From: Neobacillus sp. FSL H8-0543
GTDB taxonomy: Bacteria > Bacillota > Bacilli > Bacillales > Cytobacillaceae
Direction: 5' to 3'
Assembly: GCF_038592905.1 (NCBI RefSeq)
Contig: NZ_CP151943.1
Location: forward strand, 344,001-408,000
DNA: 64,000 nucleotides
Shown here: positions 41,528 to 64,000 of the stretch, one piece after another
How the letters are laid out: every line of letters begins with the position of its first letter
Numbering within the stretch: the stretch's first letter is position 1
Made by a program: the position numbers and the translations under genes
Notes under the pieces: generated by a model
The model's input: only the letters and a program-made list of their open reading frames with translations
The model's database searches: none
What the model was told of the DNA's origin: nothing

Positions 41528-42685
41528 CTATAATGGTTGATAGGGCTGGATGGCATATGATGATAAGATTTGTACTGTCATATCATCCATTGGCGGATTG
41601 TGTATACCTGCTCTTACATCACGGTAGTACCTCTGTAAGGGACTTTTCAAGGAAAGGCTTCTCGCTCCAACAATTCTCATTGCCAAATCAACTGCCTCGA
41701 TTGCAGCATTTGTAACCGTTAATTTAACTGCTCCTAATACAGGTCCCATCTTTTCCCTATCTTGCTCGTCAGAAACATCCCATTGTTTGGCAACCGCATG
41801 TAAAAAGTATTCTGCCTGCATGATCTTTAATTCCATTTCACCAATTTTCTGCTTAACATTTGGCAATTCGACAATCGGTCTATCAATACTGTTTGGAGAG
41901 TATGTTAAGGCAAATTCAATCGCATGTTTTTTTGCTGCTTTTGCAATCCCAAGATAGCAAGCAGGAATGTGGAGGAGCCATCCATTTGCTCTTTTGGCCT
42001 CACGCCCTAGCTGTTCCACATAGGATTCATTGTCAACCACCACATTTACAAGATGTAAATCATGACTGCCTGTTCCTTTCATAGCTATACTATCCCATGT
42101 TTCTTCTATTATTACACCTTCAAGGTTTCTAGGGATAAGAAAGTTCCCCACTTGAGTTGTTTCGCTAATGGTTGCACTAACAATAAAGAAATCGAGCATT
42201 GGTGACATTGTCGTAAATGTCTTTCTCCCATTAATAATCCAACAATCACCTTTTTTAATAGCTATGGTTTCCGGTTTTCCCCCACGAGTTGGACTCCCTG
42301 TAGTCGGCTCGGTCGCGGCAGCATTAACCAATGCACCCTTGCTCACCGCTTCGCACAATTTTTCGAATACAGACTCCTTCCATAATTCTTTTTCTGCAAG
42401 ATTTTTGACTATTCCCATATGCCAGCCAATAGAAAGCGCTGTAGCCCCGTCTCCCTCTGCTATTTTCTCTTGGAGCTGTACCATTTCTAAAAGCGTAATT
42501 TCCTGACCTCCATATTTCTTTGGTACAGTTAACGCAGTATAACCCGTGTCTATTAAATCTTGAATGTTTTCAAATGGAAAACTTCCTTCAATGTCCACCT
42601 TATGTGCTCGTGTTGAGAAACGTTTAGAAAGTTCATCCATCAATAAAAGTCTTTCTTCTAATGTCGCTTTACTTTGAAAATCCAT
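41528..42685 (-). CDS. Acyl-CoA dehydrogenase family protein
   Basis: 385 residues. N-terminal helical domain, central beta domain (AATEPTTGSPTRGG, KTFTTMSPMLDFFIV, WDSIAMKGTGSHDLHL) and C-terminal helical domain ending with a Dibenzothiophene/HpaB-like AMRIVGARSLSLKSPLQRYYRDVRAG. FAD-dependent oxidation of an acyl-CoA, or a flavin-dependent monooxygenase of the same fold; the end of the protein leans to the latter group. Monocistronic; AGGAGAG precedes ATG. Confidence 0.85.
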   Translation of the reverse strand: MDFQSKATLEERLLLMDELSKRFSTRAHKVDIEGSFPFENIQDLIDTGYTALTVPKKYGGQEITLLEMVQLQEKIAEGDGATALSIGWHMGIVKNLAEKELWKESVFEKLCEAVSKGALVNAAATEPTTGSPTRGGKPETIAIKKGDCWIINGRKTFTTMSPMLDFFIVSATISETTQVGNFLIPRNLEGVIIEETWDSIAMKGTGSHDLHLVNVVVDNESYVEQLGREAKRANGWLLHIPACYLGIAKAAKKHAIEFALTYSPNSIDRPIVELPNVKQKIGEMELKIMQAEYFLHAVAKQWDVSDEQDREKMGPVLGAVKLTVTNAAIEAVDLAMRIVGARSLSLKSPLQRYYRDVRAGIHNPPMDDMTVQILSSYAIQPYQPL

Positions 42686-42731
42686 TTAGCACTCTCCTAT
42701 CTTCGTCTCTACCACTCTATCAATCTTGAGG

Positions 42732-44069
42732 CTATCCTATCATAATTTTACCTTTTGGATACTTAAATACATCTGGGTTCTTACGGACCGTTATCGCATA
42801 AGCAATGGTCAATGGACCTACCCTTCCTGCAAACATGGTCAAAATAATTATTGTTTTACCAATTGGAGTTAATTCCGGTGTTAATCCCATCGAAAGTCCA
42901 ACCGTTGCAAAAGCTGATGTTGCCTCGAATAAGATCGCTAAAAAATCCTTCCCTTGCTCCGTAATAGTTAACAGCATCGTTGTTAGCACAACAAGAAATA
43001 ACCCGCTAAATGTCACAGTAATTGCTTTGTAAATTGTTTCGTACCCCACTCGCTGGTGAAAAAATACAACATCCTGTTTACCTCGAATTTGTGACCAAAC
43101 TGCCCCAATCAATGTGGTAAAGGTTGTAGTTTTTATCCCGCCCCCAGTAGAACCCGGTGATGCCCCGATAAACATTAAAAACACGATTAAGAACAAGGAG
43201 GTTTGGTTCATCTCTGAAATAATAAGTGAATTTGCTCCAGCTGTCCTAGAAGAAACAGATTGAAAAAAAGAGCTAAGTATTTTACCTGTTAAGGATAATG
43301 GCTTTAATGTATTATCATTTGAAAGTTCAAATAAAAAGATTCCAATCGTGCCGATCATTAACAGAATCGCACTTGTCATCAGGACCACTTTCGTATGCAT
43401 AGATAATCTTTTCTTTTGGCGATAGGCAAATAGTTCATTCATTACAATGAAACCTAATCCGCCTAGTATGATTAATGAAGAAATCGTAAGGGATACTGTT
43501 GGGTCTGCCACGTAATTTGTTAAGCTTTTATATTCGCCCATTAAATCAAATCCAGCATTATTAAAATTGGAGATTGAGTGGAAAATTCCATAATAAATTG
43601 CTTTTACAAGTGGCATATCAAGTGAGAATCTAATTGAGAGTATCAAAGCCCCCATCGTTTCGATGACAACAGTAAAGACTAAAATTTGTTTCACTAATTT
43701 AACGATTCCTTCTAACGATAGAATATTTAATGATTCCTGCAAGAGAATACGTTCCTTAAGTGTTATCCGTTTCCCAAGGATTAAGGCAAATAAAGTAGCA
43801 AAGGTCATAAAACCTAGACCGCCCACCTGAATCATGGATAGGATAACCAGTTGTCCAAAGATTGTAAAAGTGGTGCCAGTATCAACAACAACTAGACCCG
43901 TTACACAGGTTGCAGAAGTAGCAGTAAAAAGGGCATTCACTATAGGTAAACCTTGATTATCTGCAGTAGCAATAGGCAGTGTTAATAATACTGTTCCAAT
44001 TAATATAATTAAACTAAATCCTAGTACAAGGATTCTTGGTGGATCAAGATAATATTTTTTTCGCTTCAT
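42732..44069 (-). CDS. TrkH/Ktr potassium uptake subunit (KtrB/KtrD-like)
   Basis: 445 residues, the length of B. subtilis KtrB. Four repeated membrane-pore-membrane units with filter-type loops (ATSATCVTGLVV; SNFNNAGFDL; SSRTAGANSL; SAFATVGLSMG). It makes the potassium-conducting dimer that works with a cytosolic RCK protein (KtrA/KtrC), not encoded here. AGGTGA sets the start at MKRKKYYLDPP. Ktr systems are c-di-AMP targets in Bacillus. Confidence 0.9.
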   Translation of the reverse strand: MKRKKYYLDPPRILVLGFSLIILIGTVLLTLPIATADNQGLPIVNALFTATSATCVTGLVVVDTGTTFTIFGQLVILSMIQVGGLGFMTFATLFALILGKRITLKERILLQESLNILSLEGIVKLVKQILVFTVVIETMGALILSIRFSLDMPLVKAIYYGIFHSISNFNNAGFDLMGEYKSLTNYVADPTVSLTISSLIILGGLGFIVMNELFAYRQKKRLSMHTKVVLMTSAILLMIGTIGIFLFELSNDNTLKPLSLTGKILSSFFQSVSSRTAGANSLIISEMNQTSLFLIVFLMFIGASPGSTGGGIKTTTFTTLIGAVWSQIRGKQDVVFFHQRVGYETIYKAITVTFSGLFLVVLTTMLLTITEQGKDFLAILFEATSAFATVGLSMGLTPELTPIGKTIIILTMFAGRVGPLTIAYAITVRKNPDVFKYPKGKIMIG

Positions 44070-44195
44070 TAGACTCTCACCTGGCCTATTTGGGATTCTA
44101 AAAATAATTATCTTCCTTTGGTAATTCATTGTCTACAAGTTTAAATTATAAAATTATTAAAATTTGCCCTATTCTAACTCCTGTATCATTACTCA

Positions 44196-44224
44196 TTGTT
44201 ATTTGTCATAAATTGTACTATAAT
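44196..44224 (+). promoter_or_regulatory. Sigma-A promoter of the NarK-PAS gene
   Basis: TTGTTA (44196-44201), a 17-bp spacer and TATAAT (44219-44224), with a leader of about 100 nt. No Fnr box is visible. Confidence 0.55.
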
Positions 44225-44332
44225 ACACAAGGGAAAATGGCTCCATACATAGGCTTTTACAACTAAAAAACTGTTATCTTATAGCTATTTTGGGGAAATA
44301 TTACAACAAAAGGATGTTTAAGGGGGATAAAG

Positions 44333-45838
44333 ATGAATCAAGGTGCAAGACAATTATATATTCAAACCGCTAGCCTTATTGTAGGATTTATGGTTTGGGT
44401 GCTTATTTCTTCACTTATGCCTTTTATTAAAGAAGATATTGAGCTATCATCTACGCAAATTGCCTGGGCTACAGCTATACCAGTAATCCTTGGTTCTCTG
44501 CTCCGAGTTCCGATTGGATATTGGACCAATCGTTATGGGGCAAGATTATTATTTGTAATTAGTTTTATCGTTCTACTTGTGCCAATTGCAATTCTTAGTT
44601 TTGCTAACACATTATTCATGTTGGTTTTGGGTGGATTTATGCTCGGTATTGGTGGGGCAGTGTTTTCAATTGGGGTAACTTCTCTACCAAAATACTACCC
44701 AAAAGAAAAACATGGATTTATTAATGGTATTTACGGAGTAGGAAATATGGGAACAGCAATCACTTCTTTTGCTACCCCTGTCCTTGCGAATTCGTTTGGC
44801 TGGAGAACAACGATACAAATATTCCTAATTGTTGTTTTAATATTTGCGATTATTAACTTTCTGTTTGGAGACCGTCAAGAACAAAAGGTTAACAAACCAT
44901 TAAATGAGCAAATCAAAGCTGTTTATAAAAATCCTAAACTTTGGTTTTTAAGTTTGTTTTACTTCATTACCTTTGGTTGTTTCGTAGCATTTACTATTTA
45001 TTTGCCATCTTTTTTAGTAAACCATTTTGATTTAGATAAAGTAGATGCAGGTTTACGTACGGCAGGATTCATTGCTATAGCTACAATCTTTCGACCAATA
45101 GGAGGCTGGCTTGGGGATAAAATCAATCCATTTTTAATTTTAGCGGTTGTTTTTACTGGCTTAACATTCTCCGGTTTTCTATTGTCCTTTACACCTTCCC
45201 TGCCGATTTACTCTTTTGGATGTCTATTAGTTGCCTTTTGTGCGGGGATTGGTAATGGTGCTATTTTTAAATTAGTCCCATTCTACTTTTCAAAACAGGC
45301 GGGGATCGTTAACGGGATTGTTTCAGCAATGGGTGGTCTTGGCGGCTTTTTCCCACCGATTATCCTAACCATTCTCTTTAACTGGACTGGTCACTACGCG
45401 ATAGGCTTTATGTCCTTATCTGAGTTTTCGCTTGCAAGTTTGATTTTAGTGATTTGGCTCTATTATCAGGAAAAGCTAGAAATTTCCGCAAAAATCGTCG
45501 CTCACGCTACAGATGGAATCACTGTTACAGATGCGTTTGGAGTTATCCAAAGTGTTAATCCTGAATTCACAAAAATTACTGGCTATACTTCTGAAGAAGT
45601 AATTGGAAAAACACCAAGTGTTCTCCAATCTGGTGAGCACGATAATGAATTTTACAAAAAAATGTGGGAAAGTCTAAAGACTAAAGGAATATGGAAAGGC
45701 TATATTTGGAATAAACGAAAAAACAATGAAATTTATAAAGAATGGCTTACCATTACAGCAATTAAAGATGATACTGGGGAAACAAAAAATTATGTCGGTA
45801 TGTTTAATGAAGTTGATGATGATAGCAAAAAATCATAA
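44333..45838 (+). CDS. NarK-type MFS nitrate/nitrite transporter fused to a C-terminal PAS domain
   Basis: 501 residues. Residues about 1-385 are a twelve-helix major facilitator protein of the nitrate/nitrite porter family, with GVGNMGTAI and GAIFKLVPFYFSKQAGIVNGIVSAMGGLGGFFPP loops. Residues about 390-501 are a PAS/PAC domain: ITVTDAFGVIQSVNPEFTKITGYTSEEVIGKT, then WKGYIWNKRKNNEIYKEW. The PAS sequence closely resembles those in the histidine kinase at 50373. AAGGGGG precedes ATG. The PAS may sense redox, a ligand or light and adjust transport; this is inference. Confidence 0.88.
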   Translation: MNQGARQLYIQTASLIVGFMVWVLISSLMPFIKEDIELSSTQIAWATAIPVILGSLLRVPIGYWTNRYGARLLFVISFIVLLVPIAILSFANTLFMLVLGGFMLGIGGAVFSIGVTSLPKYYPKEKHGFINGIYGVGNMGTAITSFATPVLANSFGWRTTIQIFLIVVLIFAIINFLFGDRQEQKVNKPLNEQIKAVYKNPKLWFLSLFYFITFGCFVAFTIYLPSFLVNHFDLDKVDAGLRTAGFIAIATIFRPIGGWLGDKINPFLILAVVFTGLTFSGFLLSFTPSLPIYSFGCLLVAFCAGIGNGAIFKLVPFYFSKQAGIVNGIVSAMGGLGGFFPPIILTILFNWTGHYAIGFMSLSEFSLASLILVIWLYYQEKLEISAKIVAHATDGITVTDAFGVIQSVNPEFTKITGYTSEEVIGKTPSVLQSGEHDNEFYKKMWESLKTKGIWKGYIWNKRKNNEIYKEWLTITAIKDDTGETKNYVGMFNEVDDDSKKS

Positions 45839-45841
45839 GCC

Positions 45842-45873
45842 CTGGACTTTCTTCGGAAAGTCCTATTTTTTTG
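45842..45873 (+). terminator. Terminator of the NarK-PAS gene
   Basis: GGACTTTC/GAAAGTCC stem with a TTCG loop, then a T-run. Confidence 0.85.
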
Positions 45874-45938
45874 GAACAGGAATGAAATATTACAACTTTT
45901 TGACTTTTTTCCCATGTTCACATTTCCTTCACCTTTTT

Positions 45939-45954
45939 TGTGACATCCGTCACA
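45939..45954. promoter_or_regulatory. Fnr box upstream of narK
   Basis: TGTGA-CATCCG-TCACA is a perfect match to the Bacillus Fnr site TGTGA-N6-TCACA. A -10-like TTATAG at 45976-45981 puts the site about 41.5 bp before the start of transcription, the activating position. This predicts induction without oxygen. Confidence 0.75.
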
Positions 45955-46043
45955 AAAGTGATGTTATCATGTGGTTTATAGTGAAAACACAAAGATAAAC
46001 CACTAGAGTAATAGAAATTATGTGGGTTTAGGGAGAGATGATC

Positions 46044-47345
46044 ATGGCACGAATTAATTATTGGAATCCTGAAGATGAAAAGTTCTGGAATGCTGAAGGA
46101 AAAAAACATGCAAAACGAAATCTTTGGATTTCTGTACCATCATTAATGCTCGCATTCATCGTCTGGCAAATATGGTCAGTCGTTGCTGTCAGATTAAATG
46201 ATATTGGCTTTAATTTTACAAATGAGCAATTGTTTACATTGGCTGCTATACCTGGCTTAGTTGGAGCTACACTGAGGTTTGTTTATACCTTTGCGGTTGG
46301 TTCAATTGGCGGTAAGAATTGGACAGCGATATCTACTGGGGTACTTGCCATTCCTGCGATTGGCATAGGATTTGCTGTCCAAAATCCAGATACTCCATTC
46401 TCCATCATGCTATTACTGGCAGCACTATGTGGTCTTGGCGGAGGGAACTTTTCGTCCTCTTCTGCAAATATTAGCTTTTTCTTCCCTAAAAAAGAAAAAG
46501 GGACAGCACTTGGAATTAATGGCGGTTTAGGAAATATGGGTGTATCTGTTGTACAATTTGTTACACCATTAATTGTAACAACTGGGGCATTCGCATTTGC
46601 TGGTAAAGGGCAAGTTTTGGCAAACGGTGAACAAGTTTACTTACAAAATGCTGCATTTATCTGGGTAATTCCAATTATCATCATGACTGTACTTGCATTC
46701 TTTAAAATGGATAATGTTCCAGGCGCAAAACAATCCGTTGCAGACCAATTTGTTATCGTAAAACGAAAACACACGTGGATTATGACCATTTTATATATTG
46801 CCACTTTCGGTTCATTTATTGGGTACTCAGCGGCATTCCCACTTTTGTTAAAATCACAATTTCCTGAATATATTTCACTTGCCTTCCTAGGTGCACTTCT
46901 AGCAGCAGCTGCAAGACCTGTTGGTGGTTGGCTTGGTGATAAATTTGGTGGTGCAAAGGTAACAGCGTATGTATTTGTTTTTATGGCCATTGGTGCTCTT
47001 GGGGTAATCTATTTCTTAAACGGCAAACAATTTGCAGGTTTCTTACTTTCATTCCTTGTCCTTTTCCTTGCATCAGGAATTGGATCTGGTTCTACTTTCC
47101 AAATGATACCGAATCTATTTATTCCAAAAGAAGCCGCACCTGTGATTGGTTTTTCGGCAGCATTTGCAGCCTATGGATCATTTTTCATCCCAAAACTTTT
47201 TGGGTGGTCTGTTGATACAACGGGTACACCTGTTACAGCATTCTATTTCTTTATCGGATTTTATGTTGTTGCATTTGCTCTTAACTGGTTCTATTATCAA
47301 AGAAAATCTACAGTAGCTGCAACAACAGTAAAACAGGCTGGGTAA
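46044..47345 (+). CDS. narK: Nitrate/nitrite transporter NarK
   Basis: 433 residues, twelve-helix MFS nitrate/nitrite porter. Nitrate-porter signatures are visible: CGLGGGNFSSSSANISFFFPKKEKGTALGINGGLGNMGVS and GSTFQMIPNLFIPKEAAPVIGFSAAFAAYGSF. It takes up nitrate or exports nitrite. The start at the third codon of the long frame (MARINYW) has GGAGAG 6 nt upstream. An Fnr box at 45939 predicts anaerobic control. It is the second NarK-like protein in tandem. Confidence 0.93.
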   Translation: MARINYWNPEDEKFWNAEGKKHAKRNLWISVPSLMLAFIVWQIWSVVAVRLNDIGFNFTNEQLFTLAAIPGLVGATLRFVYTFAVGSIGGKNWTAISTGVLAIPAIGIGFAVQNPDTPFSIMLLLAALCGLGGGNFSSSSANISFFFPKKEKGTALGINGGLGNMGVSVVQFVTPLIVTTGAFAFAGKGQVLANGEQVYLQNAAFIWVIPIIIMTVLAFFKMDNVPGAKQSVADQFVIVKRKHTWIMTILYIATFGSFIGYSAAFPLLLKSQFPEYISLAFLGALLAAAARPVGGWLGDKFGGAKVTAYVFVFMAIGALGVIYFLNGKQFAGFLLSFLVLFLASGIGSGSTFQMIPNLFIPKEAAPVIGFSAAFAAYGSFFIPKLFGWSVDTTGTPVTAFYFFIGFYVVAFALNWFYYQRKSTVAATTVKQAG

Positions 47346-47364
47346 TAACCCAACCTGTTTTTTT
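47331..47364 (+). terminator. Terminator of narK
   Basis: AAACAGGCTGGGT/ACCCAACCTGTTT stem overlapping the narK stop codon, with a T-run. Confidence 0.8.
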
Positions 47365-47381
47365 CTATTATAGATAGTAGT

Positions 47382-47948
47382 TTAGTCGATAATTGTAACC
47401 TTTACTTGTTTTTTGCCCCAGTCTTTTGCTTCTTTTTCAGAAGGAATAAATACATCGATTTCATTTCCGTCTATTGCACCACCAATATCTTCAGCCGTTG
47501 CATAACCATACCCTTCGACATAGACTTCACTACCAAGTGGAATTACCTTAGGGTCAACGGCAATCACTTTCTCCTCTGGATTGTCTTTAATATTAACCCC
47601 TGTCTTGGTAATTCCTGAACAGCCTTCACACGAAGCGGTATAGGCTGTCGCCTTAACAGTAATGACTGGATTGCTTTCATTGTTAGGATCATTTGTTTTT
47701 ACTTGATTCTCTTTATCTGAAGCAATATTTGGAGTTGCTGTTTTTCCCTTTTTTATTTTATTATCAACAACAGGATCTTCACTTTCTGATCGCTTATTAT
47801 CATTTACTTCGTTAATATTAGATTCCTTTGACTGTTCAACTAGAGTAGTATTGTGATTTTCTTCAGTAATTTCAGCCGCCAGTACGCTAGCGCCTAAAGT
47901 CCCTGAGAGCGCTGCAACTACAATGAATGTTTTTAGTTTTTTAATCAT
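47382..47948 (-). CDS. Secreted 3D domain protein
   Basis: 188 residues. Signal peptide (about 1-25), a charged, disordered linker (about 30-90), then a C-terminal 3D (Asp-Asp-Asp) domain: TAYTAS...GVNI...IAVDPKVIPLGSEVYVEGYGYATAEDIGGAIDGNEIDVF. 3D domains are double-psi beta barrels of cell-wall lytic or spore-germination enzymes such as YocH or YuiC. GGGAGG sets the start. Confidence 0.85.
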   Translation of the reverse strand: MIKKLKTFIVVAALSGTLGASVLAAEITEENHNTTLVEQSKESNINEVNDNKRSESEDPVVDNKIKKGKTATPNIASDKENQVKTNDPNNESNPVITVKATAYTASCEGCSGITKTGVNIKDNPEEKVIAVDPKVIPLGSEVYVEGYGYATAEDIGGAIDGNEIDVFIPSEKEAKDWGKKQVKVTIID

Positions 47949-48101
47949 TTTATTACCTCCCATGTTCTTTCGAAGCTACCTGAGATAATTTTAACATGGA
48001 TTCTTTGAATACAAAGAACAGGGAGATGTTAATTGGTTTACGTCTTCATTAATTATATTACGATAACATTTCTTGTTGTCAGACAATTCCTCTTTGTATA
48101 T

Positions 48102-48134
48102 GAAAAAGAGGCGAGGATTATCCTCGCCTTTTTC
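48102..48134 (-). terminator. Terminator of the formate dehydrogenase gene
   Basis: GGCGAGGA/TCCTCGCC stem with a U-rich tail on the minus strand. Confidence 0.8.
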
Positions 48135-48147
48135 CATCACTGCTTTT

Positions 48148-50205
48148 TCAAATACGAGCAATCGCCACCGCACACGCCTTATATTCTGCTGTACCGGAAA
48201 TCGGGTCATATTCATTTAGTGTTAAAACATTCGTCGGTGTTTCACTCCAGTGAAAACTCATAAAGACAAGACCTGGAACCACCTGTTCTGTAACCTTAGC
48301 TTTAACCGTTAATTCTCCCCTACGAGAACGAACCTGAACGACTTCACCATCCACAATTCCTAAATTCAGAGCATCCTCAGGGTGGATATCGACAGTTTCT
48401 TCTGTTTGTTTTATTTTCACTCCAGGTGCATAATGTCGGGTCTGGCTATGGGTATTATAGGACTCATAGCGTCTGCCTGTTGTAAGTGTATAAGGATATT
48501 CATCATCTGGGAGTTCTAATGGCGGTGTGAAATCCACTGGAACAAATGGTGACTTTTGTACGACAGATTCCTGATTATGAAATCTTTCGTGCATAATAAA
48601 TGTCCCTGGATGGTTCTCATCTGGACATGGATAATGAATGCTGTATTCCTTATCAAGCCTTTCATAAGACATCCCGCCGTACAACTCCCATGCAAGCGCC
48701 CTAACCTCTTCCCATATTTCTTCACTATTAGCATAACTAAGCGGATAGCCCATTAAGGTGGATAGCTCACAAAGAATTTCCCAATCTTCTTTGACATTAG
48801 GGTGGGATTCCACAGCCTTACGGACTCTTTGAACTCGGCGGTCTGTATTTGTATAGGTTCCATCTACCTCACCCCATGAACGAGCTGGAAGAACCACATC
48901 GGCCATTTTGGCTGTTTCCGTTAAGAAAATATCTTGTACGATTAACAAATCAAGCTTTTCTAAAAGTTTTTTTGTATGGTTCATATGAACATCTGCCATT
49001 AATGGATTTTCACCAATGACATATAATGCCTTCAATTCACCTGTTTCCAGTCTATCAAAGGTTCTTGTTTGCGTATCACCCGGTTGAGGGTTAAGGACGA
49101 CATCCCACTCTTTTTCAAAACGTGCACGGTATTCGTCATTCGCTAGACTCAACGCTCCTGGCAATTGGTTTGGCAAACAGCCCATATCTCCCGCACCCTG
49201 AACATTGTTTTGCCCTCTTAATGGCATGATTCCTGTACCTTGTTTTCCAATATTCCCTGTTAATAATGCAATATTGGCGATATCAAAGACATTGTTTACT
49301 CCACAGTGGTGTTCAGTAATCCCTAATGTATAAGCAATCATAGAAGCACTTGAACCAGCATATTCCCTTGCGGTTTCTACAATATCTTCTGCCTTTAAAC
49401 CGGTAATTGCTGCTGCGTATTCAGGTGTATAAAGCTCTACCTGCTTTCTAAGTAAGTCAAAATCAATCGTAAATTGCTGAATAAAATCAGGATTGTATAA
49501 GCCTTCTTTAATAATTACCCGGATAAATGCATTAATGAGTGCGATATCCGTTCCGACATTTATTTGTAAGTGCCGATGCGCAAATTTAACCATATCAATT
49601 TTTCTAGGATCAATTACAATTACCTTCAGACCTGATTTGACTGCTTTCTTGATCCGATTTGCAATAATTGGATGAGCTTCTGTTGTATTCGAGCCCATAA
49701 GTAGTAAGACTTCCGCTTTGTCAAAATCTTCAAGTGTATTTGTAGGGAAACCGCTTCCAAACACTGTCGCCAGACCGGCAACGCTAGGTGCGTGTCAAGT
49801 TCGGTTACATCCGTCAATATTATTACTGCCAATCACTGTTCTCATAAACTTTTGGGTGATAAAATTTGATTCGTTTGTTGTTCTTGCACAAGCAAACATT
49901 GTAATGGCCTTAGGACCCCACTGATCTTTAATGGCAGTTAAATTATTTGCAATATATTTATAGGCCTCTTCCCATGTTGTTTCGACCAACTTCCCTGCTT
50001 TTCTAATAAGCGGTGATGTAAGTCTATTTTTAGCATGTACGTATTCATAGGCGAATGCACCCTTAACACAGGTTTGCCCTTTATTAACAGGTGCCTCTTT
50101 GTCGCCGCGAATTTTAATAATCCTATTATCTTTCACTTCTAGCACTAATCCACAGCCAGTACCGCAATAGCCGCAAATAGTTTTTACCAAGTTTGCTTCT
50201 CCCAT
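48148..50205 (-). CDS. fdhF: Selenocysteine-containing formate dehydrogenase (FdhF-like)
   Basis: A continuous 686-codon frame containing one in-frame TGA (codon 137), giving a 685-residue protein, near E. coli FdhF (715). A [4Fe-4S] site uses C11, C14, C18 and C46 (CGYCGTGCGL...GQTCVKG). The UGA falls in CNRT-U-HAPSVAGLATVFG, exactly the Sec/Cys site of molybdopterin formate dehydrogenases. Residues about 137-685 form the bis-MGD catalytic domain and C-terminal dinucleotide-binding domain. It lacks the N-terminal ferredoxin part of the roughly 980-residue Bacillus enzymes (YrhE/YjgC). Reading it as two genes or a frameshift would be wrong. No partner subunit is adjacent. Confidence 0.9.
49766..49794 (-). 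promoter_or_regulatory. SECIS-like hairpin after the UGA codon
   Basis: GUUGCC-GGUCU-GGCGAC (one G-U pair) begins 12 nt after the UGA. The GGUCU loop and its distance from UGA equal those of the E. coli fdhF SECIS element, whose loop is also GGUCU. It would recruit SelB with Sec-tRNA. Confidence 0.82.
49795..49797 (-). other. In-frame UGA, predicted selenocysteine codon
   Basis: TGA on the minus strand at codon 137. Both flanks keep one frame and family-conserved sequence (CNRT before, HAPSVAGL after). This is strong evidence that it is decoded as selenocysteine rather than stop. Confidence 0.9.
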
Positions 50206-50216
50206 TATCTAACCTC

Positions 50217-50247
50217 CCTATATAAACATTATTACCTATATAAACAT
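50217..50247. repeat. Tandem repeat in the fdhF leader
   Basis: CCTATATAAACAT occurs twice (50217 and 50235), period 18 bp, just before the fdhF ribosome site. Each copy contains a TATAT that could act as a -10, or as a regulator half-site. The function is unknown. Confidence 0.5.
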
Positions 50248-50334
50248 ATTAATCTATTCAACTGGAAAGTAGCTTCTTTTTTCAAAAAAAATTTGTCTAT
50301 TTTTTGAAAAATATTGAATTTTTCATTTCCTACC

Positions 50335-50371
50335 CTCAAAAAAAAAAAAAAACGAGATATTGTCTCGTTTC
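50335..50371 (-). terminator. Terminator of the histidine kinase gene
   Basis: AAACGAGA/TCTCGTTT stem followed on the minus strand by a U-run of about 15. Confidence 0.85.
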
Positions 50372-50372
50372 T

Positions 50373-52532
50373 TCATGCTGGCTTGGCTGGTAGTAATATA
50401 TTGAAGGTTGTTCCTTTATTTGGTTCACTTTCCACAAACACTTTTCCATTATGACTTTCAATGATTTTAAAGCTAACCATCAAACCTAAACCATTACCAT
50501 TTTTCTTGGTTGTGTAGAATGGTTCACCAAGCTTTTTGAGCTTTTCTTTGGAAATGCCAACACCCGTGTCCTGTATTGATATTTGCACATTGTTATCATG
50601 AATCATGGTTTTAACATGCAATTCTCCGCCATTAGGCATTGCTTCCATACCATTCTTAATAAAATTTAAGAACACTTGTTTTAATCGATTCTCATCGCAT
50701 TCAATTTGAATGATTTCATGGTTACAATCGAAAGACAATCGGACCTTTTTCTTTCTTGCCTCAAATTCAAGAAGTGATACAACATCCTTAATAACTGGAA
50801 CTACATTTTTCTCTTCTAATTCCACTGCCTTTGGTTTTGCAAGTACCATAAAGTCCTCCACAATCATGTTAACACGTTCAATCTCATCAAGAATGATATT
50901 CATGAACTCCAAACGTTCCGGATCTTTCTCATCAAGAGTGAGGAACTCTGCGTACCCCTTCATAGAAGTAAGCGGATTACGGATTTCATGAGCCACTCCT
51001 GCAGCTAATTGACCTACTGCTGCTAGTTTATCTTGACGATGGAGCACCTCTTCTGTCTTTTTCCTTTCCGTAATATCATTGCGGATAGCTACATATTGGT
51101 AAGGTTTACCTTGTTCATTTAGAAAGGGAACAATGGTTGTATCAACCCAATAAAAAGTGCCATCTTTCGCTTTGTTTCTAATTTCACCTTTCCAAACATT
51201 TCCTTCACCGATGGTTTTCCATAAACTTTTAAAATATTCTTTTCCATGGAAACTGGAATTTAAGATATTATGGTCTTTACCGATGATCTCTTCACGGCTG
51301 TATTTTGAAATCTCACAGAATTTATCATTGACGCTAGTAATCTTCCCTTTTGCATCCGTAAACGCAACAATCGTTGATTGGTCAAGGGCAAAACGAATAT
51401 CGATATTATCTTTGATTGTTTCTCTTAAATGCTCTTCAGCCTGTTTTCGTTTCGTAATATCCGAGCGGATAGCAATATATTGGATTGGTTTTCCCTTTTT
51501 ATTCAAAAACGGAACAATGGTTGTATCAACCCAATAGAACGTGCCATCTTTGGCTTTGTTACGAATCTCACCTCTCCACACCTTACCGGACTGGATGGTT
51601 TGCCATAAGTCTTTAAAAAATTCTTTTGAATGGAACCCTGAATTTAAAATTCGGTGATTCTTACCAATAATTTCTTCTTTAGTATACTTAGAGATTTCTT
51701 CAAATTTATCATTAACAAATACAATGGTTCCAGTTGGATCTGTAATAGCTACAATTGTAGAGGTATCGAGAGCGGCTTTAATATCTTTTAGATTAGTGTC
51801 TGATTCAGCCAATTGTTTACTTATAAGCGTACTAGAAGCAATTAACCCCGCAACAATTAATACCGTAATTAATAATACTAATGAAATAATAAATGTACCT
51901 TCACTAACCTGCCCTTGTATTCCATTCGGATTTGGAATTAATATAGAGGCTCTTTTAAGCAGAAAATGGCCTTCAGCAATTGCACTTGTCATAATAATCG
52001 CACTTATAGGTTTCAACCAAGTTTGGTTGCTCTTTGTAAAACCTTTAGAGGAAAATAGAATCCATAATGAAAAATAAAAGGATCCTAAGATTATTACTCC
52101 CGAAAAAACAAAAAGAGGAACATTTAATTGATAACTTAAATTCATTGCATATAGGCTTATTATATAATTGGAAAAAACCGCTGTTGTTAAAAATAAACTC
52201 CCAAAAAGAAAGTGAATCATTCGTCTTTCGTTTCCTAATAACAGAATAAAAGCCATTCCTGCAAATGCAATACCGATAAAAACCGACAAGATGGTAAAAG
52301 GAATCTGATAGGTTGCAAACCGACTGATATCTGCTGCTATTAAGCCGATAAAATTCATTACCCAGATTGCAATACCCATTGATACAGAACCGCCTAGGTA
52401 CATTAGTCTTTTTTTACTTTTAGAAGATTGAATTAATGTAAACATATCTAAGCCTGTGTATGAGGCCATGATCGTTAATCCAATAGCAATTATGATTAAA
52501 AAAGGATGAAACGCTCCTGATACTGCATCCAT
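50373..52532 (-). CDS. Sensor histidine kinase: MHYT-like membrane domain, two PAS, HisKA
   Basis: About 719 residues. Seven membrane segments (about 1-240) carry degenerate MHYT-like repeats (IMASYTG, MGIAIWVMNF, ISLYAMNL), a fold proposed to bind metal ions and sense diatomic gases. Two nearly identical PAS/PAC domains follow (about 250-370 and 375-495), then HisKA (HEIRNPLTSMKGYAEFL) and an ATPase domain (GNGLGL). No response regulator is adjacent. Its PAS domains resemble the PAS on the NarK fusion. GGGGGG lies 9 nt before the fourth-codon ATG used here. Confidence 0.88.
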   Translation of the reverse strand: MDAVSGAFHPFLIIIAIGLTIMASYTGLDMFTLIQSSKSKKRLMYLGGSVSMGIAIWVMNFIGLIAADISRFATYQIPFTILSVFIGIAFAGMAFILLLGNERRMIHFLFGSLFLTTAVFSNYIISLYAMNLSYQLNVPLFVFSGVIILGSFYFSLWILFSSKGFTKSNQTWLKPISAIIMTSAIAEGHFLLKRASILIPNPNGIQGQVSEGTFIISLVLLITVLIVAGLIASSTLISKQLAESDTNLKDIKAALDTSTIVAITDPTGTIVFVNDKFEEISKYTKEEIIGKNHRILNSGFHSKEFFKDLWQTIQSGKVWRGEIRNKAKDGTFYWVDTTIVPFLNKKGKPIQYIAIRSDITKRKQAEEHLRETIKDNIDIRFALDQSTIVAFTDAKGKITSVNDKFCEISKYSREEIIGKDHNILNSSFHGKEYFKSLWKTIGEGNVWKGEIRNKAKDGTFYWVDTTIVPFLNEQGKPYQYVAIRNDITERKKTEEVLHRQDKLAAVGQLAAGVAHEIRNPLTSMKGYAEFLTLDEKDPERLEFMNIILDEIERVNMIVEDFMVLAKPKAVELEEKNVVPVIKDVVSLLEFEARKKKVRLSFDCNHEIIQIECDENRLKQVFLNFIKNGMEAMPNGGELHVKTMIHDNNVQISIQDTGVGISKEKLKKLGEPFYTTKKNGNGLGLMVSFKIIESHNGKVFVESEPNKGTTFNILLPAKPA

Positions 52533-52833
52533 TAACAGCATCCCCCCAATTTCCCAATCTATTTCTACTATGATTGTAATGTAAAATAGCGAGATAAGGA
52601 AGTAAATTTTGGAATTACCTACTGTTAAACATTATTTTATCCAGCTTTTATTCTTTGTTGTTACATAAACACTTTTAGATTGGAGTAGAATATTACATAG
52701 GATGAATGTCTCATTTTTCAAAAAGAGGAGAATTTTTTTAAAAAAGGGCTACACAAATTACTTTTTTTTGATTATACTGTACTACAACAGGTGATAAATT
52801 AATAAACTGTATTAAACAAGGAGGGGTTTTACA

Positions 52834-52965
52834 ATGATGAATCCAGTTGAATTTTTTCGTACTTTACCAAAAAAAGAATGTCCAGAGTGTGGGCAACACA
52901 TGGATGAACAGGCTGAAAGTTATTTGATGGAATGTGATCGTTGCTTAGCTAAAAGAGCTGAATAA
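52834..52965 (+). CDS. YhfH family small zinc-ribbon protein, copy 1
   Basis: 43 residues with two CxxC pairs (CPECGQ and CDRC) that can bind zinc, in the YhfH pattern (M-N-P-VEFFRTLPKKECPECG). AGGAGG precedes ATG. Copy 2 lies 100 bp downstream and is nearly identical, including the leader. Confidence 0.8.
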   Translation: MMNPVEFFRTLPKKECPECGQHMDEQAESYLMECDRCLAKRAE

Positions 52966-53065
52966 ACACACAAAGTAATAAAGGTAGAATTAATATTTTT
53001 TTGAATAGGTTGTTCTACAACAGACATTCATTTAATCCACTGTATTAAATAAGGAGGAATATTAT

Positions 53066-53200
53066 ATGTTAATGAGTCCAGTTGAATTCTTTCGTACGTT
53101 ACCTAAAAAGGAATGTCCAGAGTGTGGGCAACACATGGATGAACAGGCTGAAAGCTATTTAATGGAATGTGATCGTTGCTTATCAAATAGAGCTGAATAA
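53066..53200 (+). CDS. YhfH family small zinc-ribbon protein, copy 2
   Basis: 44 residues, the same as copy 1 except at the N-terminus and two residues near the C-terminus (LSNRAE for LAKRAE). The shared upstream words ACTGTATTAAA and AAGGAGG show that the duplication included the leader. A terminator follows. Confidence 0.8.
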   Translation: MLMSPVEFFRTLPKKECPECGQHMDEQAESYLMECDRCLSNRAE

Positions 53201-53206
53201 ACACCT

Positions 53207-53238
53207 AAACTCTCCCATTGCAGGAGAGTTTTATTTTT
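53207..53238 (+). terminator. Terminator of the YhfH pair
   Basis: AAACTCTCC/GGAGAGTTT stem with a T-rich tail. Confidence 0.8.
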
Positions 53239-53304
53239 ACATATGAATAGTGCTGGAATAAACCTTTCTGCTTAGGCAAAAGCTTAGAACAGGAGGTGTT
53301 TGTG

Positions 53305-53487
53305 ATGAAAAAAAATGAGGATAACCCAACTATACCTAATTATCCACAAACAAACGGAATTATTGGTGGGATTCTCCCTAATTCCCTTAGAGTAGCTGGC
53401 GATTCTGTTGATAAATTAAGGGCTATCGAGGAAACAAATACTGCAATCTCAGGCAATGAAATAGGTCAGCAGAATGAAAATCTTTAA
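53305..53487 (+). CDS. Small hypothetical protein
   Basis: 60 residues, polar, no recognisable family. GGAGGTG 6 nt before ATG 53305 supports it as a gene; an upstream GTG overlaps that site. The terminator at 53490 follows. Confidence 0.6.
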   Translation: MKKNEDNPTIPNYPQTNGIIGGILPNSLRVAGDSVDKLRAIEETNTAISGNEIGQQNENL

Positions 53488-53489
53488 AT

Positions 53490-53526
53490 AGAAAAGACTG
53501 TCGTTAAAATGCAGACAGTCTTTTAA
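53490..53526. terminator. Terminator between small genes at 53305 and 53534
   Basis: AAAAGACTGTC/GACAGTCTTTT stem flanked by A and T runs. Confidence 0.8.
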
Positions 53527-53533
53527 AACATCT

Positions 53534-53719
53534 TTATATTTTTGGAAGCTCTCTTATTTCCTGAATCATTGAATTACCACACATAGGACAAAGTAAGTCG
53601 TCAGTAACAAAATCCTTTCTCATCCAGCCGATACAGGAATCATCCATACAAGAATATATTTCGGTGTCTAACATGATTGTTTCAATTTCTTCATCTCTAT
53701 TTCTTTTACCATAAAAAAT
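53534..53719 (-). CDS. YdjO family protein with probable AUU start
   Basis: 61 residues. Two CxxC-type motifs (CMDDSC and CPMCG) and the W-M-R-K-D-F segment match the cold-inducible YdjO family. AAGGAGG lies 8 nt before codon ATT at 53719, and the protein then reads FYGKRNRDEE, as family members read after Met. The upstream GTG (53761) lacks a ribosome site and would place the AAGGAGG inside the gene. No in-frame ATG lies between. So AUU is the likely start. Confidence 0.72.
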   Translation of the reverse strand: MFYGKRNRDEEIETIMLDTEIYSCMDDSCIGWMRKDFVTDDLLCPMCGNSMIQEIRELPKI

Positions 53720-53817
53720 GGGAACCGCCTCCTTTTTTATTAGTATGTACAAAAATCGCACTTTTCATTGCACGAACGAATCAATCTTTACTCTAAACAA
53801 ATAAAGGAAGGATCCAA

Positions 53818-53961
53818 ATGATGAATAAATCTGTAAATAATCGAACGATAGCAGGGACTAATATTGAAGAGGTGAAACGTTTAAACAGCCAGTCAGGATT
53901 AAGTTACAATCAGGTAAAGCAATTGCTTGCCGAAAAATATTTGGATAAAAAAGAAGAATAA
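53818..53961 (+). CDS. Small hypothetical, gamma-SASP-like motif
   Basis: 47 residues. AGTNIEEVKRLNSQSG resembles the repeat of gamma-type small acid-soluble spore proteins (AsxN.xEVxxxN), but the C-terminus (QVKQLLAEKYLDKKEE) does not. Function uncertain; spore association is an inference. GGAAGG precedes two ATGs. Confidence 0.55.
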   Translation: MMNKSVNNRTIAGTNIEEVKRLNSQSGLSYNQVKQLLAEKYLDKKEE

Positions 53962-53981
53962 ATTGGAAACGAGGGTGTTCA

Positions 53982-54152
53982 ATGAAAGAAATAGTCTTAA
54001 GTATTGTTGCGGGTATGGCAGTAGGAATCCTTTTTAGATTTTTAAAATTACCAATTCCAGCTCCTCCAGTCCTTTCTGCCGTTTTAGGTGTCTTCGGGGT
54101 ATATTTTGGCGGTGTCGTTGCTGATTGGATTATGACAAATTTCACTAAATGA
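53982..54152 (+). CDS. XapX domain membrane protein (DUF1427)
   Basis: 56 residues with two hydrophobic segments and the family's LPIPAPPVLSAVLGVFGVYFGG signature. The function is unknown. It lies 20 bp after the previous small gene and may be co-transcribed. Confidence 0.82.
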   Translation: MKEIVLSIVAGMAVGILFRFLKLPIPAPPVLSAVLGVFGVYFGGVVADWIMTNFTK

Positions 54153-54183
54153 CAACAAGCCTTCCAATTGGAAGGCTTGTTGT
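54152..54183. terminator. Terminator between XapX and lrgB
   Basis: ACAACAAGCCTTCC/GGAAGGCTTGTTGT palindrome, serving the XapX gene and possibly lrgB. Confidence 0.75.
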
Positions 54184-54212
54184 GTAATTAATACAACGTC
54201 AATTTATTTTCC

Positions 54213-54896
54213 TTAATGTAATACCAAATAGGGAATAACATAAGGTATAACAATAGAAGTCAGGATACCAGCAATTCCCATAGCTGCACCTGCAACTGCA
54301 CCTTGAACTTCCCCTTCCCTAACTGCCTCAGCTGTTCCGATTCCATGTGCAATCGTACCAATTGACAATCCTCTAGCAAAGGGCTGGTCAACTTTTACTA
54401 AATTTAAGATTTGGGGACCAAATAAAGCGCCGGTCATTCCCGTAACAATAACGAAGCCAGCAATAAGAGATTGATTTCCTTCTATTATCCGCCCTATCTC
54501 AGTAGCAACCGGTACGGTTACCGATTTAACGCTAAATGAAAGTAATATTTCTCTAGGAAAACCAAACCAAATTGCCATAAGAATGGCTGATGTTATGGTC
54601 AAAAAGGTACCTGAAATAAGGCCTACTAATGCTGCACTGAAGTATTTAGTTAATGACTTCCCGTTTTTGTAAATTGGAATCGCCAACGCCACGGTTGCTG
54701 GCCCTAGCAAGTAAGTCATAATATTTTTTGCAGGCGTGTAGTCCTGATAAGATACATTTGTCATTAGCAAAATAGCAATAATAGCAACCGTACTTAAGAA
54801 TACGGGATTGGTTAAGGGTGAAGAAAATCTTTTACTAATATTAAGGATAAGATTGTATATCGTGATCGTTATTACAATACTAAATAGCGTGATCAT
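54213..54896 (-). CDS. lrgB: LrgB/CidB family membrane protein
   Basis: 227 residues, polytopic. SVKSVTVPVATEIGRIIEGN and GTIAHGIGTAEAVREGEVQGAVAGAAMG are the family's signature loops. With LrgA it forms a holin/antiholin-like pair, also reported to export pyruvate in B. subtilis (PftAB). It overlaps lrgA by 17 nt. Confidence 0.92.
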   Translation of the reverse strand: MITLFSIVITITIYNLILNISKRFSSPLTNPVFLSTVAIIAILLMTNVSYQDYTPAKNIMTYLLGPATVALAIPIYKNGKSLTKYFSAALVGLISGTFLTITSAILMAIWFGFPREILLSFSVKSVTVPVATEIGRIIEGNQSLIAGFVIVTGMTGALFGPQILNLVKVDQPFARGLSIGTIAHGIGTAEAVREGEVQGAVAGAAMGIAGILTSIVIPYVIPYLVLH

Positions 54897-55272
54897 GTGA
54901 AGTCACTCTCACCTTTTCTTTTCTACTCATAACTGATTGAGTAATTCTTCCAGCGGAAATCATGCCAATTATCGCACTTGAAATAATAATAAACAAAAGT
55001 GATAATCCATTTTTACTAATAACCTGACCTAAGGTCATTAACCCCACTGAAATAGGAATGAAAAAGAAACCTAAATGCTTCAAGAGCCAACCAGCGGCAA
55101 GTTCTATCTGTTCTAACTTGATAACTTTCAACCATAGTAACACTAGGAGCAATAACATTCCTATGACATTACCTGGAATTTTTAACTGAAAGAATTGCGT
55201 AATATAATTTCCTATATGATAGATCAAAACCAATAGGAGCATTTGTGCGCAAGATCTCCACGCCTTTTCCAT
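54880..55272 (-). CDS. lrgA: LrgA/CidA family holin-like protein
   Basis: 130 residues, about four membrane segments, with KIPGNVIGMLLLLVLLW and LGFFFIPISVGLM, the LrgA family motifs. First gene of the lrgAB pair. GGGAGGTGA precedes ATG. The LytSR-type regulator is not present in this window. Confidence 0.9.
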   Translation of the reverse strand: MEKAWRSCAQMLLLVLIYHIGNYITQFFQLKIPGNVIGMLLLLVLLWLKVIKLEQIELAAGWLLKHLGFFFIPISVGLMTLGQVISKNGLSLLFIIISSAIIGMISAGRITQSVMSRKEKVRVTSHDHAI

Positions 55273-55399
55273 CTATCTCACCTCCCTAATCATTTTACTA
55301 GTATAAAGGAAAATGACTATATAAGCAGGTATTTTGTTCACAAAATATCCATATCTTTTTACTAAAAACTTCTTTATCTTTAAACTAGGAGGGATACAA

Positions 55400-56002
55400 A
55401 TGAAAAAAATCTATATTATTTGCAGTCTTGCGGTGTTCCTAGGGATTGCAGGAGGAATCTCTTTCTTTCTAATTCGAGATGCAAGTGCACAAATACCAGA
55501 AGAAATCACTTTAGTTACCCAGAATGGTGATACATACAATTTTGGTGAAGATAAGACAAAATTGAAGTTAGTCGAATTTATTTACACCCACTGTCCTGAT
55601 ATTTGTCCAACCACAACTCAAAAGATGAATTCACTAAAAACTGATTTAGAAAAAAGCGGGGTTTTTGGAAAAGATGTTGAATTTCTTACCATTACCATTG
55701 ACCCGTACCGCGACACTCCTGAACTATTACAAAGATATATAAAGGGATTTGAAATTGAAACCAGCGAGCATTGGATTTACCTGACAGGTGACCCAGAAAA
55801 TATTAAAGCAGATCAGCAAAAAATACAAGAAGTAGCGGACTCCTTGCAATTTCAATACAAAGACCCAGGGAACGGCCAATTTGTTCACACTTCCTTTACT
55901 TATTTAGTCGACGAAAATAATAAATTTGTTGAGAAATTCCCTATGGGAGAGGACTTCGACAAAAAAGAAGTATACGATGAGATTATGAAGGAAATTAAAT
56001 AG
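55400..56002 (+). CDS. SCO1/SenC family copper chaperone
   Basis: 200 residues. An N-terminal membrane anchor (about 1-25) precedes a thioredoxin-like domain. The copper-binding CPDICP (CxxxC) and the later His in FVHTSFTYLVD are intact. SCO proteins deliver copper to the CuA site of cytochrome oxidase. The start at MKKIYII has AGGAGGG 7 nt upstream. Confidence 0.92.
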   Translation: MKKIYIICSLAVFLGIAGGISFFLIRDASAQIPEEITLVTQNGDTYNFGEDKTKLKLVEFIYTHCPDICPTTTQKMNSLKTDLEKSGVFGKDVEFLTITIDPYRDTPELLQRYIKGFEIETSEHWIYLTGDPENIKADQQKIQEVADSLQFQYKDPGNGQFVHTSFTYLVDENNKFVEKFPMGEDFDKKEVYDEIMKEIK

Positions 56003-56007
56003 TCAAA

Positions 56008-56049
56008 TAAAAAAAGCGGTTAGTCCCTTGGATTAATCGCTTTAATTTT
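56008..56049 (+). terminator. Terminator of the SCO gene
   Basis: AAAGCGGTTAGTCC/GGATTAATCGCTTT stem with minor mismatches and a T-rich tail. Confidence 0.75.
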
Positions 56050-56055
56050 ACCTAT

Positions 56056-56190
56056 TTAATTCACTGATGAAGGATATTTCTTTATTTGCTGTAACGATAA
56101 AAGGTAATTGGACTTTGGTTTAGTTAAACTCGCTTTTATTCCAGCCTGCTTTAACTTGTTAACGAGTTCACTAAGTTGTTTCTTCGCCAT
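56056..56190 (-). CDS. Small basic hypothetical protein
   Basis: 44 residues, basic (MAKKQLSELVNKLKQAG, then IKASLTKPKSNYLLS). GAGGGTG precedes ATG. No known family comes to mind. The shape suggests a small helical nucleic-acid- or membrane-associated protein. Confidence 0.6.
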   Translation of the reverse strand: MAKKQLSELVNKLKQAGIKASLTKPKSNYLLSLQQIKKYPSSVN

Positions 56191-56371
56191 ACTTTTCACC
56201 CTCTTTTATTACTTCTTAACCCAATTCTACAACAAAAATATGAATAAAGTGTGAAAATTATAAAAAAAACCCAGAAAATTTTTCTTCAATATTTTTACTT
56301 TCTCCTTCATTTTTTTATATGCTGGTTATCGCAAATTCGCTCTTCCACTGAATTAGTGTTATAATGTATAG

Positions 56372-58018
<1,647 letters not shown>

Positions 58019-63262: not shown

Positions 63263-64000
63263 ATGGAACAATGGCAAGGTTTTGTTAAAGGTGCATGGAC
63301 AAACGATGTAAACGTCCGCGACTTCATTCTAAAAAATTATGCTCCATATGAGGGCGACGATAGCTTTTTACAAGCGGCAACAGATGCCACAAATAAACTC
63401 TGGGAACAAGTAATGGAATTAACCAAAAAGGAACGCGAAAATGGTGGCGTCCTAGACATGGATACTGAAACTGTATCTACTATCACTTCACATGGCCCTG
63501 GTTATCTAAATGAAGAGTTGGAAAAGATTGTTGGTGTTCAAACCGATAAACCATTCAATCGCTCGATGCAGCCTTTCGGCGGAATCCGCATGGCAAAAGC
63601 AGCATGTGAAGCGTATGGTTATGAATTAAACCCAGAAATCGAAAGATTCTTTACAGAATTCCGTAAAACTCACAACCAAGGCGTATTTGATGCTTACACG
63701 GATGAAATGATGCTTGCTCGTAAAGCTGCTATTATCACTGGTCTACCTGATGCATATGGCCGTGGTCGTATTATCGGCGATTATCGTCGTGTCGCATTAT
63801 ATGGTGTGGACTTCTTAATAGAAGAAAAGAAAAAGGATAAAAAAAATACAAGTAAGGTAATGACAGAAGACAATATGCGTCTTCGTGAGGAGATTGCTGA
63901 ACAAATTCGTGCATTAAATGAACTAAAAGAAATGGCAAAAACCCACGGATTCGATATTTCCAAACCTGCTAAAACAGCTGTTGAAGCATTCCAATGGGTA
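63263..64000 (+). CDS. pflB: Formate acetyltransferase (pyruvate formate-lyase), partial
   Basis: The N-terminal 246 codons, cut by the window end. MEQWQGFVKGAWTNDVNVRDFI, FNRSMQPFGGIRMAKAAC and ITGLPDAYGRGRIIGDYRRVALYG are conserved PFL segments. It converts pyruvate and CoA to acetyl-CoA and formate anaerobically. The catalytic cysteines and glycyl-radical site lie beyond the window. GAGGTG precedes ATG. The formate could feed the selenoprotein dehydrogenase. Confidence 0.95.
   Translation, partial: MEQWQGFVKGAWTNDVNVRDFILKNYAPYEGDDSFLQAATDATNKLWEQVMELTKKERENGGVLDMDTETVSTITSHGPGYLNEELEKIVGVQTDKPFNRSMQPFGGIRMAKAACEAYGYELNPEIERFFTEFRKTHNQGVFDAYTDEMMLARKAAIITGLPDAYGRGRIIGDYRRVALYGVDFLIEEKKKDKKNTSKVMTEDNMRLREEIAEQIRALNELKEMAKTHGFDISKPAKTAVEAFQWV

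Follow-up and report, generated by a model that had tools for sequence, protein, structure and literature searches.

Formate dehydrogenase is the top selenoprotein family of bacteria, found in 822 organisms according to a 2016 survey (PMC5029168). An earlier survey, from 2006, counts three selenoprotein families and three selenoproteins for the Firmicutes/Bacillales (PMC1794560). The available portion of a 2012 paper on nitrate reduction in Bacillus contains no word starting with 'seleno' (PMC3475470), and no paper on selenocysteine (Sec) in Neobacillus, Mesobacillus or Bacillaceae was found, judged by title, in the open-licence literature. At NCBI, the name 'formate dehydrogenase H subunit alpha, selenocysteine-containing' is already given to proteins of Neobacillus cucumis and Mesobacillus subterraneus, which are 83% and 78% identical to the enzyme described here; these entries, of 517 and 539 aa, cover 75-79% of it.

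Among the closest described enzymes, E. coli FdhF (formate dehydrogenase H, FDH-H; 1aa6) is a protein of 715 aa. The FdhF subunit of hydrogen-dependent CO2 reductase (HDCR; 7qv7), the source of which we take to be Thermoanaerobacter kivui, belongs to a hydrogenase complex and has Cys in the Sec column of its deposited sequence. Bacillus subtilis possesses YjgC, which is longer (985 aa in the PDB) through an additional N-terminal part, and also YrhE.

The gene addressed here lies in a window of 64,000 nucleotides from Neobacillus sp. FSL H8-0543 (contig NZ_CP151943.1, positions 344,001 to 408,000), the whole stretch of DNA that was analysed, and positions without a further label refer to it. 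The fdhF-like gene occupies 48148-50205 on the minus strand and is one frame of 685 codons, with a sole in-frame TGA at codon 137 (49795-49797, minus strand) and a terminal TGA stop. The original prediction, which named no strand, had joined two frames through this single TGA with no frame change, and this holds: the minus-strand open reading frames 49795-50205 (136 codons) and 48148-49764 (538 codons) share one phase, and the join reads CNRT-U-HAPSVAGL. The plus-strand frame of the same interval contains many stops.

The product is likely an FdhF-type formate dehydrogenase, that is, the alpha subunit of a bisMGD-type molybdopterin enzyme with an N-terminal [4Fe-4S] motif, and formate oxidation is its predicted reaction. 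It scores 801.7 bits with the TIGR01591 Fdh-alpha profile, exceeding the equivalog cut-off of 666.25, and carries the Pfam domains PF04879, PF00384 and PF01568 (Fe4S4, molybdopterin and dinucleotide-binding). By sequence it matches four solved formate dehydrogenases over their full length (7qv7, 9t1s, 7bkb and 1aa6). Aligned with 1aa6, it has U137 opposite the X of residue 140 and K48, H138 and R330 opposite K44, H141 and R333, which places the TGA at the catalytic Sec/Cys position, as had been predicted. The Sec/Cys, His, Arg and Lys columns and the four FeS Cys columns are all present; we take K48, H138, R330 and Sec137 to be the catalytic residues, and C11, C14, C18 and C46 to be the ligands of the [4Fe-4S] motif.

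The window's enzyme resembles E. coli FdhF in size, in its Sec column and in its Lys, His and Arg columns, but no formate hydrogenlyase-type genes were recognised near it. The HDCR subunit is its best PDB match (residues 3-685, E 2.5e-203), yet genes of a hydrogenase complex were likewise not recognised near fdhF. YjgC is alike in its catalytic part, but only its residues 261-929 match, so that the difference from this Bacillus enzyme that had been claimed is real. Within the genus, related frames of about 1000 aa are 35-38% identical and have no stop inside.

The TGA itself is strongly conserved. We examined 109 loci, namely 29 from a genus search, 79 from genome contigs (two sets that overlap in species) and the window's own; 107 of them cover the site, which L124 and L138 do not reach. 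TGA stands there in 105 of the 107, and in all of the 84 distinct homologous genes. The two exceptions, L135 and L137, have TGT and are distant, being 32% and 29% identical and coming from an archaeal MAG and a Desulfobulbaceae MAG. Across the family, all 140 matches at E<=1e-200, from 129 genomes, have a TGA, one of them with a TAG in addition. An in-frame UGA thus occurs where homologues have Sec or Cys, as in a bacterial selenoprotein.

This conservation bears on a simple alternative, in which the gene encodes a Cys-type formate dehydrogenase and the TGA reflects faulty sequencing or a disabling mutation. The databases lend it some colour, as they mostly store the C-terminal piece of the protein: the best 120 of 7,931 records measure 446-540 aa. 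However, a sequencing error is ruled out by the 105 of 107 loci and the distance of the two TGT exceptions, and the family-wide matches, the codon-level constraint just 3' of the TGA and the complete Sec machinery, both described below, refute the alternative as a whole, leaving it a vanishingly small probability. Gene annotation often shortens genes of this kind, and because the best 120 of the 7,931 database copies are C-terminal fragments, metabolic reconstructions can miss the formate dehydrogenase.

Just behind the UGA lies a SECIS-type hairpin (49766-49782, minus strand), with a 6-bp stem, GUUGCC/GGCGAC, a GGUCU loop, and 18 nt between UGA and loop. The upper stem of E. coli fdhF has a bulged U, and in its predicted fold one base is unpaired, whereas the stem in the window is continuous over its 6 bp. 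The distance from TGA to GGTCT in E. coli fdhF, read from NC_000913.3, is also 18 nt, so the prediction of a GGUCU hairpin at the E. coli spacing was correct.

The evidence for this hairpin comes from a synonymous-codon test on the 84 distinct genes, in which 159 columns have a conserved A, G, V, T, P or L, amino acids with four- or six-fold codons. A single codon is used throughout at only three of the 159 columns, +6 (GCC), +7 (GGT) and +8 (CTG), which form the hairpin loop and the upper stem. Codon entropy is lowest at eight columns that all lie between +5 and +15, namely +6, +7, +8, +10, +15, +13, +5 and +9. The stem codons +5/+9 are GTT/GCA in 56 genes, GTC/GCG in 25 and GTT/GCG in three, the last including the window's own gene and making a G-U pair; GTC/GCA, which would mismatch, occurs in none. 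Among the 43 conserved Val and Ala columns, the gene tree requires no change at +6, two at +5 and five at +9, while each of the other 40 needs 16-36. The test of independent pairs for stem covariation has no power, with one to two pairs and p = 1, and the covariation evidence at +5 consists of two changes only. We considered whether GGUCU simply follows from the encoded motif VAGLA and rejected this, as +6, +7 and +8 keep one synonym in all 84 genes and codon choice varies at other conserved Ala, Gly, Leu and Val positions.

The folding energy of the hairpin is ordinary. Against dinucleotide shuffles, z is -0.23 for fdhF, -0.32 for fdnG, -1.43 for selD and -0.80 for selW, the last three being further selenoprotein genes of the genome; against mononucleotide shuffles, the window's fdhF gives -0.27, that of E. 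coli -0.28 and a single Mesobacillus homologue -2.95. A search of a 5-kb region with Rfam returned four matches, each below its gathering score and outside the hairpin, which drew no match even at E<=5. Chance origin of the hairpin is therefore excluded by conservation and not by folding energy. A SECIS stem-loop right after the UGA is supported by conservation and pairing, the energy z being not significant and the covariation events few, and the case for this element rests on codon constraint, with covariation as support.

The genome contains the machinery needed to decode such a codon. It measures 5.30 Mb in a single contig, and the search for selA, selB, selC and selD that the original prediction called for returned all of them. 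The selA gene lies at G000:C1:5251410-5252507, with SelA above the selA equivalog cut-off; SelB and SelD, in profile searches of the same genome, exceed theirs. ARAGORN reports two tRNA-SeC genes with anticodon tca, which differ at two of their 97 bases. Five of 14 control genomes also score above the cut-off of the Rfam tRNA-Sec model, so that the Rfam match is weak by itself and is supported by ARAGORN.

Three further UGA-containing selenoprotein genes accompany fdhF in this genome. The selD gene has an in-frame UGA in the motif AG-U-GCK. Between selD and selA lies a SelW-like CxxU gene (L002:10328-10567, plus strand) for 79 residues with C-M-Q-U; its protein is above the CXXU SelT/W/H cut-off, just below that of NF041051 (84.8 against 88), and belongs to Pfam Rdx. 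The third is an FdnG-type Sec formate dehydrogenase (L026:6582-9566, minus strand), 994 aa long, with one TGA at residue 191 and a TIGR01553 score of 1277.7 against a cut-off of 814.2; a Tat-type leader was judged by eye. An FdhD gene above its cut-off lies near fdnG, together with genes for which FDH beta, FDH gamma, FdhE, MobA and MoeA-type families are the best match or among the leading ones, all below the cut-offs. A hairpin is predicted after the TGA in each of the four genes. FdnG is longer than FdhF, but the two have their TGA at a matching motif and share the GGUCU loop at equal spacing. The SelW-like hairpin has the triloop GUU, GUC or GGU (28 distinct sequences from 31 loci), and its stem varies with pairing retained, from CCGCGA/UCGCGG to CUGCGA/UCGCAG through G-U intermediates. 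Two candidate hairpins are predicted for selD, one of them with the triloop GUU, GUG or GUC (29 sequences).

The distribution of the trait was followed in 61 genomes of the genus, searched for FdnG, SelD, SelW-like, SelA and tRNA-Sec, and in 193 genomes of the family, from 25 genera, searched for SelB and FdhF; control genomes were added for families. In the family, the SelB wing is found in 170/193 genomes and 22/25 genera, and FdhF or its paralogue, at E<=1e-200 and with at most six candidates scored per genome, in 129/193 genomes and 17/25 genera. The paralogue, 50-53% identical, is the sole match in six of the 129. Sec formate dehydrogenase is thus common in the family, and the view that it would be unusual for this lineage did not survive the comparison. 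Bacillales selenoproteins had been counted in 2006, and two orthologues already bore a selenocysteine-containing name; what is unexpected is how widespread the trait is, most of the genomes sampled from this Bacillus-like family having it. This corrects the impression, derived from B. subtilis, that Bacillus relatives make no use of selenocysteine, as SelB is present in 170 of the 193 sampled species.

FdhF and SelB occur together. A SelB match is found in 127 of the 129 genomes that carry FdhF; the remaining pair are draft assemblies in 720 and 530 contigs. Conversely, among the 23 SelB-negative genomes, three of which were placed outside the FdhF carriers by elimination, 21 have no FdhF at E<=1e-200. 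The gene is present in G046 and G066, both fragmented drafts; G046 nevertheless has SelA and tRNA-Sec. This pattern weighs on a second alternative, in which the UGA is read by a near-cognate tRNA, for instance that of Trp or Cys, or acts as a regulatory true stop, with selenium uninvolved. A hairpin that is thermodynamically unexceptional would suit such a reading, but the joint absence of gene and SelB, the position of the UGA on the residue-140 column of E. coli FDH-H, and a loop and spacing equal to those of the E. coli fdhF element make it very improbable.

We consider it very probable instead that the gene encodes a Sec-containing, FDH-H-like formate dehydrogenase of the FdhF type, in which UGA 137 is decoded by means of the hairpin, SelB and Sec-tRNA(Sec), and which likely converts formate to CO2. 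The hairpin after the UGA would recruit SelB with Sec-tRNA(Sec), and the ribosome would then read codon 137 as Sec; the Sec-tRNA(Sec) would be made by SelA, using selenophosphate from SelD. The Sec residue is the expected ligand of a Mo/W-bisMGD cofactor and would be surrounded by K48, H138 and R330. The single [4Fe-4S] cluster would carry electrons out of FdhF to a partner presumably encoded elsewhere.

Within the genus, the components of the trait are kept to different extents. A SelA-family match is found in all 61 genomes, in G009 only as remnants, and tRNA-Sec, SelD and the SelW-like gene are each found in 60, with at least one TGA in each SelD match and one TGA in each SelW-like match. 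An FdhF orthologue (83% or more identical) with one TGA is present in 51/61, and two more genomes have just a TGA-containing paralogue of 51-52% identity, which brings FdhF-like genes with TGA to 53/61; FdnG is found in 49/61. The SelW-like gene is therefore kept more widely than either Sec formate dehydrogenase. The paralogue, a second FdhF-like gene with one TGA, occurs in a subset of the genus and family genomes, as at G005:C27:45755-47779, G016:C22:26175-28196 and G048:C1:5770776-5772800. In one genus genome, a second FdnG-like match, 43% identical and also with one TGA, lies at G060:C16:62986-65415.

Two kinds of loss are visible in the genus. In G009, selA is decayed (G009:C1:4008233-4008758, L219), its longer remnant containing three TGA and five TAA, and no tRNA-Sec, SelB, SelD, SelW-like gene or Sec formate dehydrogenase of either type was found at the thresholds used. 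Judged by these searches, G009 is a natural, joint loss of the whole Sec trait. Five other genomes (G010, G015, G025, G032 and G059) retain SelA, SelB, tRNA-Sec and UGA-containing SelD and SelW-like genes, and lack both Sec formate dehydrogenases at the thresholds applied; weaker FdhF-type matches in G010 reach at best E 6.3e-110. FdhF by itself does not explain the Sec trait, because 43 of the 170 SelB-positive family genomes are without it at E<=1e-200. It is conceivable, though we put it at somewhat short of even, that the Sec machinery of the lineage is not kept for formate dehydrogenase and is held by a small redox selenoprotein (SelW-like) and SelD, while formate dehydrogenases are gained and lost in addition. 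With one genome that lacks the trait and five that have the machinery and neither formate dehydrogenase, the maintenance of Sec decoding is testable in cultured close relatives.

In the window, fdhF begins with an ATG at 50205, preceded by a Shine-Dalgarno-like GGGAGG (50213-50218, minus strand), read from the sequence, and by an A/T-rich leader block, GAATAGATTAATATGTTTATATAGGTAA (50232-50259, minus strand), which is partly conserved among fdhF homologues. Of 103 leaders, not de-duplicated and counted over nt 1-108 of every 136-nt piece, 55 contain AATAGATTA and 31 contain GTTTATATA. The window's own block consists of TAGATTAATATG-TTATATAGGTA, and we know of no regulator that fits it. A sigma-70 scan of 47300-50700 gave five promoter-like sites, against 10.5 in shuffles, and none in the fdhF leader. 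Terminator-like stem-loops lie after the gene (48109-48129, minus strand; nine pairs and a T-rich tail) and between it and the sensor kinase gene (50346-50374, minus strand; 12 pairs and a T tail), in a region where five such sites are observed and 2.6 are expected from shuffles. Flanked by these two stem-loops, fdhF would be transcribed alone, as its surrounding sequence suggests.

The neighbourhood was compared over 76 loci, several of them cut by contig ends, in at least the 30 largest clusters, several of which are antisense frames. The sensor histidine kinase gene (50373-52541, minus strand), with MHYT, two PAS, HisKA and HATPase domains, has relatives in 65/76 loci on the same strand. 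A NarK/NarU-like nitrate/nitrite transporter gene (46038-47345, plus strand), just below the TIGR00886 cut-off (308.8 against 311.7), has relatives in 36/76. It is adjoined by a gene for a NarK-like transporter fused to a C-terminal PAS domain (44333-45838, plus strand), which reaches 231.8 bits with TIGR00886, below the same 311.7; relatives of its NarK-like part, the PAS part being outside the count, occur in 34/76. The other neighbours, within 41528-58018, are acyl-CoA dehydrogenase, TrkH, 3D-domain, YdjO, LrgAB, SCO1 and ABC-ATPase genes. Pfam searches of the window's genes of at least 130 aa between 41528 and 58018, plus one of 75 aa, recognised no FeS partner or hydrogenase gene near fdhF, and eight genes from conserved neighbour clusters of other loci likewise gave no FeS subunit or hydrogenase.

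A source of formate may lie about 13 kb from fdhF, where a pyruvate formate-lyase gene and its activase are found. The 5' part of the former (63263-64000, plus strand), which runs off the window, scores 215.1 bits with PF02901, against a cut-off of 24.3; TIGR01255 is its sole match and stays under the whole-protein cut-off because the piece is partial. The activase gene, pflA, lies just outside the window (L030:1547-2296) and is above the cut-off of TIGR02493 PFLA. Formate could thus come from this system, and the simplest reading of the locus would be formate oxidation coupled to nitrate respiration.

The enzyme might also be a selenoprotein of this family that chiefly reduces CO2, or uses a different small molecule as substrate, while bound to hydrogenase or ferredoxin-like partners in the manner of HDCR. 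In favour of this, the HDCR subunit is its closest solved chain by sequence, and the gene is isolated between two terminator-like stem-loops, no FeS partner having been recognised in its surroundings. Against this, the formate dehydrogenase equivalog TIGR01591 is well exceeded, and a gene for the formate-making pyruvate formate-lyase lies about 13 kb away; we regard such a role as unlikely and formate oxidation as the probable direction. Some 31-34 kb from fdhF, at L030:17509-19902 (minus strand), there is also a gene for a DMSO/selenate reductase-type catalytic subunit, above the TIGR02166 cut-off and without internal stop.

Additionally, the tRNA-Sec gene (selC) seems to serve tyrosine-recombinase islands of the genus as a place of integration. 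In the host genome, where the tRNA-Sec loci are L028:7424-7520 and L029:7642-7738, the second copy adjoins an integrase gene, a DUF3987 gene and a CHC2 primase-type gene, and a 42-nt tRNA-Sec fragment (L225:14844-14885) lies about 22 kb away. In three genomes of the genus, two tRNA-Sec copies (G060:C12 632066/648418, G025:C1 2622369/2631467 and G040:C38 3740/17186) flank islands of 9-16 kb, with a phage integrase beside one copy.
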